A stretch of DNA of 64,000 bases from Oscillospiraceae bacterium. GTDB taxonomy: Bacteria > Bacillota > Clostridia > Oscillospirales > Oscillospiraceae. Position numbers and translations under genes: made by a program. The stretch is from assembly GCA_015067435.1 (NCBI GenBank), contig SVMM01000002.1:124001-188000 (forward strand), read 5' to 3'. The notes under the pieces were generated by a model that was given only the letters and a program-made list of their open reading frames with translations, was not told the origin of the DNA and did no database searches. Below are positions 15,459 through 17,048 of the stretch, in pieces. Every line of letters starts with the position of its first letter. The stretch's first letter is position 1.

Positions 15459-17048
15459 ATGGCTGAAGAAGCAAAAAAGCTCATTCAATTTAAAAATATC
15501 GTCAAGAGCTTCGAGGACGGGCAGGTCGTCCTCAAGGGCGTATCCCTTGACATCTACGAAAACGAATTCGTCACGCTGCTCGGGCCCTCCGGCTGCGGCA
15601 AGACGACGCTGCTGCGCATCCTCGGCGGCTTTTTGCAGCCCACCGAGGGCAAGGTGCTCTTCGACGGCGAGGACATCGTCAACGTCCCGCCCTACAAGCG
15701 CGAGATCAACACCGTGTTTCAGAAGTACGCGCTGTTCCCGCACATGAACGTCTATGACAACATCGCCTTCGGCCTGACGATCAAAAAGGAGCCCAAGGAC
15801 GTCATCGAGCAGAAGGTCATGCGTATGCTGCGTCTGGTGAATCTGGAAGACTACGCCAAGCGCAACGTCACCGAGCTCTCCGGCGGCCAGCAGCAGCGCA
15901 TCGCCATCGCGCGCGCGCTGGTAAACGAGCCGAGCGTCCTGCTGCTCGACGAGCCGCTCGGCGCGCTCGACCTCAAGCTGCGCAAGGAGATGCAGCACGA
16001 GCTCAAGAGCATCCAGCAGGAGGTCGGCATCACCTTCATCTTCGTCACGCACGATCAGGAGGAGGCGCTGACGATGTCGGACAAGATCGTCGTGATGAAC
16101 GCGGGCGAGATCCAGCAGATCGGCACACCCACGGAGATCTACCGCCGTCCGGTCAACGAGTTCGTCGCCAACTTCATCGGCGAAACGAACATCATCGACG
16201 GCGTCATGCTCGAAGACGACCTCGTCATTTTTGAGGACAAGCGCTTCCCCTGCTCCGCCCGCGGCTACGAGAAAAACGAGAAGGTCGACGTGGTCATCCG
16301 TCCGGAGCACCTCGACATCGTTCCCCGCGAGCAGGGCATGCTCAAGGGCGTGGTCAAATCCCAGCTGTTCAAGGGCATGCACTACGACACCGTTGTGGAG
16401 ACGCGCGCCGGCACGTCCATCACGGTCAAGATGCAGGTCGCGGCAGACAAGCCCGTCACCAACGACGAGGCGGGCGAGAAGATCAGCGCCAGCGGATTCC
16501 TGCTCGACGTCGAGGACGCCGCCGAGCTGAGCGACGCCAAGGTCATCGCACTCGCCTCCGCCGAGGCGTGGGTCTCCGAGACCGAGGAAAACGTCTCCAT
16601 CAATGTCGAGCACGACATCAAGCCCGAAACCGGCGAGTACAGCGTCAAGTTCTCCACCGCCGCCGGCACGTCCATTACGGTGCGCGCGCTGGTCGTGAAG
16701 GAAAACCGCGTGGAAAGCACCGTCTATCAGGAAGAGATCTACGCCATGAACTTCTTCAAGAAGGTCGAGGATATTCAGGAGAGCATTGCGCTCGACACCG
16801 ACCTCAAGATGTGGGCGACCGCTTCCGCGTGGAGCCTGGAGGACGAGAACGAGCAGGTCGAGATCACCGACGTGAAGTACGACTTCGATCCGGAGACCAT
16901 CGTGCCCGGCGTCTACGACGTCACGTTCTCCACCGAGGGTTATGAGTACAAGGTCTCCACCACCCGCGCCGCCGAGGAGGGCTCCGAGGTCGGGCTCATC
17001 TTCCGCCCGGAGGACATCCACGTCATGAAGAAGGGAGGCCGCCGGTGA
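15459..17048 (+). CDS. potA: Spermidine/putrescine ABC transporter ATPase PotA with a large C-terminal insertion
   Basis: PotA is the cytoplasmic ATPase of the polyamine importer. Residues 1-240 are a normal nucleotide-binding domain: Walker [10 protein letters not shown] (42-50), Q-loop [11 protein letters not shown], signature LSGGQQQ (140-146), Walker [12 protein letters not shown] (161-171) and the switch His in VTHDQEEA. The TOBE region starts near 263 ([11 protein letters not shown]) and ends with [18 protein letters not shown]. Between them, at about 316-492, lie two tandem units that each begin AGTSITV and end F-S-T. They look like bacterial Ig-like domains and raise the length to 529 from the usual 350 or so. 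GTGA overlap with potB shows coupling. The ATPase assignment is secure; the role of the insertion is unknown. Confidence 0.96.
16404..16934 (+). repeat. Tandem Ig-like repeat pair inside potA
   Basis: Two units encode residues about 316-400 and 401-492. Matching landmarks are AGTSITV, a VED motif after an aromatic pair, a W-x(6-8)-E-stretch, P-E-T and the closing FST. The opening DNA (gccggcacgtccat) is identical in both copies about 250 nt apart, which points to a duplication. Confidence 0.75.

Follow-up and report, generated by a model that had tools for sequence, protein, structure and literature searches.

The window, a stretch of 64,000 nt from a contig of an Oscillospiraceae bacterium, carries what looks like an intact operon, in which a gene for an XRE-cupin regulator is followed by potA, potB and a gene where potC and potD are fused (Table 1). 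The PotA protein scored 394.7 bits against the TIGR01187 potA subfamily model, which is above the cut-off of 355.6 and confirms the name that an earlier note had given to it. The scores with two narrower equivalog models lay below the cut-offs (543.1 against 550 for NF043075 and 431 against 482 for PRK09452). The nearest PDB sequences are those of E. coli PotA (8zx1, 8y5f), which is also the top structure match, and the gene stands in one operon with potB, potC and potD. The columns of the ABC ATPase motifs are invariant across 38 aligned PotA rows. No second close PotA was found in the genome of the window, the next match being 49% identical over residues 8-314.

Table 1. Features of the pot locus, with positions counted along the window and residues along each protein.
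Feature	Positions	Strand	Residues or length	Basis or remark
XRE-cupin regulator, PuuR-like	14893..15432	+		Pfam HTH_3 and Cupin_2; upstream of potA
potA, ATPase subunit of a PotABCD-type polyamine importer	15459..17048	+	529 aa	Single open frame
Nucleotide-binding domain	15459..16178	+	1-240	ABC_tran E 5.7e-39; Walker A, SGGQ, LDEP
Regulatory domain and first TOBE strands	16179..16403	+	241-315	TOBE_2, AlphaFold model
Insert unit A	16404..16658	+	~316-400	Predicted beta-sandwich with short helices; charge ~-10
Insert unit B	16659..16934	+	~401-492	Fold predicted as for unit A; charge ~-12
Last TOBE strands and C-terminus	16935..17048	+	493-529 and stop	Resumes the insert-free sequence (GYEYKV...VGL...EDIHVM)
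potB permease	17045..17881	+		BPD_transp_1
potC permease fused to potD substrate-binding protein	17888..19789	+	633 aa	Domain and family profile matches

The PuuR model gave 80.2 bits with the XRE-cupin protein (cut-off 211) and the PotB model gave 246.7 bits with the permease (cut-off 348), both under the cut-off. Searched against PDB sequences, the PotD part matched 4gl0 (E 1.1e-61) and E. coli PotD 8y5h (E 3.2e-47). By eye, an additional hydrophobic segment joins the PotC and PotD parts of the fused polypeptide. The transporter probably has a polyamine as its substrate.

The PotA of the E. coli PotABCD system (8y5f, 8zx1) likewise has a nucleotide-binding domain (NBD), a TOBE-bearing regulatory domain and the partners PotB, PotC and PotD. 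However, it is 378 residues long, against 529 in the window, and is without the net insertion of 177 residues (about 316-492, nt 16404-16934) that is found here in a TOBE hairpin of the regulatory domain. The insert splits this domain; Pfam TOBE_2 matched residues 278-338 with 41.3 bits (cut-off 21), covering positions 1-60 of the 76 in the profile. By eye we placed the borders of the insert after the TOBE sequence ...VVET, which ends at residue 315, and before EGYEYKV..., which begins at residue 493. They agree exactly with the earlier note, which had put an insertion in the TOBE region at 16404..16934. An automatic aligner gave a gap of equal length at 315-491 or at 320-496. Five insert-free relatives were aligned to the window PotA, and in three of them (L090, L099, L098) the longest gap was 177 residues; in the other two, L100 and L106, the gap was split (87 and 147). 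Three insert-free clostridial PotA (L090, L099, L100) are 64-69% identical to the window over the non-inserted part and have the same TOBE flanks and the same PotA-B-C-D order as the insert carriers. Unlike in the carriers, their TOBE hairpins are plain and continue uninterrupted at the insert site, and their open frames are 347-376 aa long.

The insert consists of two homologous units. In a global alignment, units A and B of the window share 39 identical residues, with a z score of 12.5 over shuffles, and z lay between 9.4 and 12.5 in the 10 sequences tested out of the 38 aligned. The two duplicated units suspected from the letters are therefore real, and the shared AGTSITV, VED and W motifs that had been pointed out stand at corresponding places in the alignment of A and B. 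When 20 units (10 pairs) were aligned jointly, the invariant columns included G4, T5, T8, V9, E26, A30, A54, A56, I67, G78, Y80 and F84. The opening nucleotides had been called identical, which is not quite the case: the AGTSITV codons of the two units agree at 19 of 21 nucleotides in the window, and both differences are silent. Nor do the opening nucleotides date the duplication, since 19 of 21 is the top of a range of 10-19 over the 38 rows. We rejected a recent duplication, as unit A aligns with A and unit B with B across carriers; the nucleotide identity that had been taken as its sign marks the upper end of a similarity that is itself old.

We scanned a collection of named genomes covering 84,980 species with the peptide patterns GTSITV[KM]M and V[YF][QRN]EEIYA, exact patterns that would miss diverged or one-unit forms, and obtained 69 insert-bearing loci. 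No one-unit form of the insert was seen in profile searches of class and phylum genomes. From the start of the match to the stop codon there are 218-223 residues in all 69 loci, and Walker A is present in 68 of them, the exception being L058, which is cut at the start of its contig. Whether a locus has both units was judged from its length and from a match that spans at least query residues 1-195; the aligned rows showing both units number 38, the window included. Carriers were found in Oscillibacter, Anaerotignum, Tyzzerella, Butyricicoccus, Chakrabartyella and many gut or rumen assemblies, and some of the loci come from isolates, with two (L064, L071) lying on complete chromosomes. Thus, the same insert does occur in the PotA of related Clostridia; the earlier note had proposed to look for it in related Oscillospirales. 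A few of the insert-bearing loci are labelled Erysipelotrichaceae or Proteobacteria. Three metagenome bins with the label Proteobacteria (L033, L035, L043) nevertheless branch among Oscillospiraceae rows; they are probably mislabelled, or possibly cases of lateral transfer.

The surroundings of the gene are largely shared by the carriers. All 69 loci have potB, and a similar XRE-cupin gene lies upstream of potA in 53 of them, some loci being cut upstream. Insert-free stretches match the XRE-cupin regulator at their potA-side edge in 8 of 20 cases; these matches are mostly short, as the stretches are cut there. The fusion of PotC and PotD was seen in 18 of the 66 loci having both parts, all inside a clade of 27 rows that holds the window, and in the remaining 48 potC and potD are separate or in differing frames. 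With this restricted occurrence, the fusion was rejected as a cause of the insert.

Within the family of the window, 6 of 150 genomes carry the insert. A PotA match with E<=1e-100 was obtained in 120 of these 150 genomes, and the matches in the same 6 carriers cross the insert while 114 end at residue 349 or before. For class genomes the corresponding numbers are 142 of 245, with 2 matches crossing the insert (the genome of the window and G308) and 140 ending at residue 346 or before. There was one PotA match per genome at this threshold. The insert-bearing PotA is thus a minority form, present in 6 of the 120 PotA-bearing genomes of the sampled family. Outside this family, the profile-positive genomes (G308, G410, G776 and G853) likewise carry both units.

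A tree was built from the part of PotA that precedes the insert (113 rows, midpoint root), leaving out L058, which has no Walker A and sits on a truncated contig, and L092 and L113, which have no end motif. The 70 insert-bearing rows form one clade with a support of 100/99, and this clade was recovered in 200 of 200 bootstrap trees (100%). Its sister group consists of L090, L099 and L100 (99/95), the insert-free PotA described above. The simplest account of these sequences would be that the insert was gained once, and its scattered occurrence among families hints at losses or lateral transfer.

Profile searches found no origin of the insert in a surface protein of its own genome or class. At E<=0.01, a profile of the unit matched nothing but PotA in 291 class genomes, three of which were positive. 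At E<=0.5, the pair was found in 3 of 398 phylum genomes, and each of a further 16 gave one match that was weak and partial (3e-4 to 0.36). We inspected four of the latter (L143-L146); by their sequence, one looks like a dehydrogenase, two like FtsX and the last like a small, unrelated frame. In the class and phylum genomes searched, the unit profile gave no convincing match outside PotA. An earlier profile of the whole insert, run on 391 class genomes, matched two apparently extracellular proteins, L087 (8e-5) and L088 (1.5e-4), but these matches are too weak to support kinship. No Big_3 or PKD_4 domain was found in the genome of the window at E<=1e-5. We found no published description of a two-unit PotA in the titles and abstract openings among the matches listed, which cover few subscription papers.

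The units are maintained about as well as the parts of the regulatory domain around them. Over 38 sequences, the two units have a mean top-residue conservation of 0.71 and 0.74; by the same measure the flanking regulatory parts reach 0.765 and 0.72 and the NBD 0.886. Across the 69 loci, the identity of the insert to that of the window goes down to 53%. The dN/dS ratio was 0.03-0.46 for unit A (computable in 7 of 10 pairs) and 0.02-0.14 for unit B (8 of 10). Within residues 316-492, 14 acidic positions (15 with the flanking E314) and 3 basic ones are conserved in at least 90% of the sequences. The acidic positions 437, 438, 441, 446 and 448, which belong to this set, are placed by the model in the two helices of unit B or in the segment that connects them. 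The invariant aromatic residues of the insert are W371, W452, Y474 and F476. We conclude that the domain pair is real, old and conserved and, as far as searched, unnamed.

AlphaFold was run on the whole PotA with 38 sequences (mean pLDDT 82.2, pTM 0.56) and on the insert alone with 52 sequences (pLDDT 91.0, pTM 0.79). The whole-protein model shows seven strands per unit and two short helices that follow the fourth of them; its overall pTM leaves the placement of the domains open. A Foldseek search of the PDB with the insert model gave no match at E<=0.001. Among the best 50 of 1038 matches, those with a probability above 0.5 are all bacterial surface domains. They are the INT domains of 7jrl (probability 0.99, E 0.076), SlpX domain II (7qfj/7qfk, up to 0.72) and RibR (6s5x, up to 0.57), all of which we take to be of the Ig-like type. 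The most probable of these 50 matches have E values of at least 0.05, and the sole match under 0.05 has a probability of 0.18. The viral library likewise gave none at E<=0.001, the most probable match being a BIG2 protein (probability 0.75, E 0.17). The Rib domain is described, in the available part of the paper on it, as a product of “domain atrophy” from a commoner fold (PMC6936399).

Comparison with known families gave little. No Pfam model exceeded its cut-off on the insert of the window, and nothing was found at E<=0.01 on its unit B. Big_3 (PF07523) matched one of 6 inserts at 0.024 in hmmscan and none of 20 units at E<=0.1, with an hhalign probability of 1.4. PKD_4 (PF18911) matched 2 of 20 units at E<=0.1, the best at 4.3e-4 (unit B of L050, 20.7 bits, under the cut-off of 27), and its hhalign probability was 1.2. 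The Wzt_C model (PF14524) gave an E value of 0.13 in one of 6 inserts. NCBIfam and PHROGs gave only weak matches with the insert (0.021 and 0.0084), and a PDB sequence search with it gave a single match at E 0.69. By sequence, as far as searched, the units are a family of their own, and by predicted fold they are likely, but not proven, to be Ig-like. The claim of Ig-like domains in the earlier note thus stands in part: the confident model (pLDDT 91) and the most probable Foldseek matches point to such a fold, whereas the E values of these matches (at least 0.05) and the sequence and profile comparisons fail to bear it out.

From its place in PotA we infer that the insert is cytoplasmic. In contrast, ZmpB INT (7jrl), SlpX domain II and RibR are extracellular, and no sequence relation between them and the insert was found. 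A beta-sandwich that is cytoplasmic and sits on an ABC ATPase is known from Wzt, where it recognises the transported substrate. However, the Wzt domain is a C-terminal appendage of an exporter, whereas the insert interrupts a hairpin in an importer.

The insert is strongly acidic. Its net charge is -22 in the window, with a median of -21 and a range of -27 to -16 over 38 sequences. Per residue, the median charge of 52 inserts is -0.119 (-0.155 to -0.091). In class genomes the corresponding value is -0.047 both for 16 Big_3 and for 11 PKD_4 domains, whose extremes (to -0.114 and -0.125) overlap the range of the insert. It is -0.009 for the NBDs of insert-free PotA (44 of the 45 insert-free rows, L099 being missed by the pattern) and -0.080 for plain regulatory domains (25 rows, the truncated L092 included). 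The variance of the net charge of the insert was 0.37 of that expected for independent columns; after removal of near-copies, 33 of 52 rows (A4) and 35 of 38 rows (A2) were used. A ratio this low was seen in 0.04% of 16276 uncharged-class controls and in 0.25% of 16728 mixed-class controls. Still, low charge variance is not unique to the insert, as the ratio was 0.32 in the N part of the regulatory domain, 0.67 in the NBD and 0.73 in the C-terminal TOBE part.

Other clostridial PotA also have an enlarged acidic regulatory domain. In L108, L118 and L120-L130 it arises through a long C-terminal extension, which, in contrast to the insert, follows a complete TOBE hairpin; the open frames are 487-553 aa long. 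By eye the extension appears as a second TOBE-like module. TOBE_2 had its best match there in one of the four tested (L125) and matched the first TOBE only in the other three. The total charge of the regulatory domain is -14 to -25 in these 13 rows and -4 to -13 in plain PotA (25 rows, one of them truncated). The extra charge of the long extensions follows from their length, since per residue they are no more acidic than plain domains (-0.085 vs -0.080). A further form with a short acidic C-terminal tail (L113, L114, L119, L131, L132, L134) has a regulatory-domain total of -18 to -24. One of these, L131, belongs to the family of the window.

The substrate side of the transporter was compared with E. 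coli PotD, for which the available part of a study names eight residues in contact with spermidine (PMC11414716). In the numbering of that source, the window PotD keeps E36, Y37, W255 and D257 and has the substitutions E171D, W229Y, W34P and D168S. We aligned 64 PotD sequences, one from the window and 63 from the 66 loci in which PotD was matched; those of the remaining loci were too short. E36 is found in 60 of the 64, Y37 in 64, W255 in 63 and D257 in 63, and S168, D171 and Y229 are present in all 64. At position 34, 35 of them have W and 23 have P (the PotD part of the window is 18788-19786), and from this proline the ligand preference may differ within the clade. The S168/D171/Y229 signature is also seen in three insert-free sister operons (L207-L209). 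A change of substrate accompanying the insert was therefore rejected, and no change with the insert was seen on the substrate side.

A possible function is indicated by work on E. coli PotABC. As far as the available part of that study goes, the ATPase is lowered by spermidine, which is proposed to be bound by the regulatory domain with its negative charge so that the inhibited state is locked, and the authors call for further investigation of this acidic domain as a sensor (PMC11414716). From the strong acidity of the insert and the proposal for E. coli PotA, polyamine binding or gating by the insert, as imagined in the earlier note, is plausible. We tentatively favor, without holding it to be probable, that the clade gained an acidic, probably Ig-like pair in the TOBE hairpin which serves as a cytosolic module for polyamine feedback. 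At high cytosolic levels, polyamine (or total multivalent cation) would bind to the acidic faces of the pair; the cation-bound pair would change how the two regulatory domains are seated in the PotA dimer; and the altered arrangement would hold the importer in a low-ATPase state. Both the binding of cations by the insert and the effect on the ATPase are extrapolated here from the E. coli transporter.

The feedback reading is favored by the conservation of two units in one clade, the low dN/dS, the acidity with its conserved positions and low variance of net charge, and the spermidine proposal for E. coli, and also by the other clostridial PotA forms, which add charge by extensions. It is weakened because the low charge variance is common to other PotA parts, the charge of the long extensions follows from their length, no change on the substrate side goes with the insert as far as seen, and the fold assignment is statistically insecure, and the fact that we identified no polyamine-binding site in the insert counts against it. 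Inhibition does not need the insert, as E. coli PotA is inhibited by spermidine without one. A broader version would make the units a PotA-only cytoplasmic family of Ig-like domains sensing polyamine or ionic strength, as one of several separate clostridial enlargements of the regulatory domain that tune feedback; this we consider unlikely.

Two other readings, in which the insert acts as a brace or as a dock, match the anatomy nearly as well as a feedback module. In the ATPase class to which PotA belongs, the regulatory domains contact each other at the cytoplasmic end of the dimer. Without any ligand, the units could here pack on each other or on the partner subunit across the twofold axis, and so stabilise the PotA dimer or limit its opening. 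The confident model of the pair and the nearly constant length of 218-223 residues in all 69 loci are consistent with such a brace, as is a rotation of the E. coli regulatory domains by about 15 degrees upon ATP binding, given in the available part of the report (PMC11414716). However, a brace could do without this much acidity, and repulsion would be expected between two acidic pairs, which makes this reading a somewhat unlikely, if possible, explanation. The units might instead be a platform on which a cytosolic partner docks, either a regulator or an enzyme of polyamine metabolism. Ig-like domains commonly serve to bind proteins, and there are other ABC ATPases under the control of proteins bound to them. 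The invariant W371, W452, Y474 and F476, which could belong to the core or to the surface, would suit docking, and so would the XRE-cupin gene upstream in 53 of 69 loci. Yet this regulator is not specific to the insert, as 8 of 20 insert-free stretches match it too, and docking seems rather unlikely to us.

That the insert is a functionless repeat array, tolerated as a passenger in a permissive loop, would agree with its position at a hairpin turn and with its being a minority form (6 of 120 PotA-bearing family genomes). We regard this as very improbable, because both units are kept in 69 loci despite an insert identity down to 53%, are about as conserved as the remaining regulatory domain, and have a dN/dS below 0.5 wherever it could be computed. 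An assembly error or a frameshift around the insert, a doubt raised at the outset, can be dismissed for all practical purposes, as 69 public loci, including isolates and the complete chromosomes L064 and L071, have the identical frame and layout.

For the feedback reading, two acidic domains set into the regulatory-domain hairpin would be a natural place to strengthen or retune the response to polyamines. How polyamines feed back on the importer is directly testable, as there are PotA forms with and without the 177-residue module that, taking the sister group, are 64-69% identical elsewhere. If the units are Ig-like, domains mostly known from outside bacterial cells would be kept in the presumed cytoplasm, within the motor of a transporter.

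Two further observations concern the locus. An open frame of 530 aa runs antisense to potA on the minus strand (15429-17021) and spans nearly the whole gene; it most likely results from codon bias. In Anaerotignum neopropionicum the operon occurs twice (L050 and L051), on one contig and about 150 kb apart, and the part of PotA that entered the tree is identical in the two.
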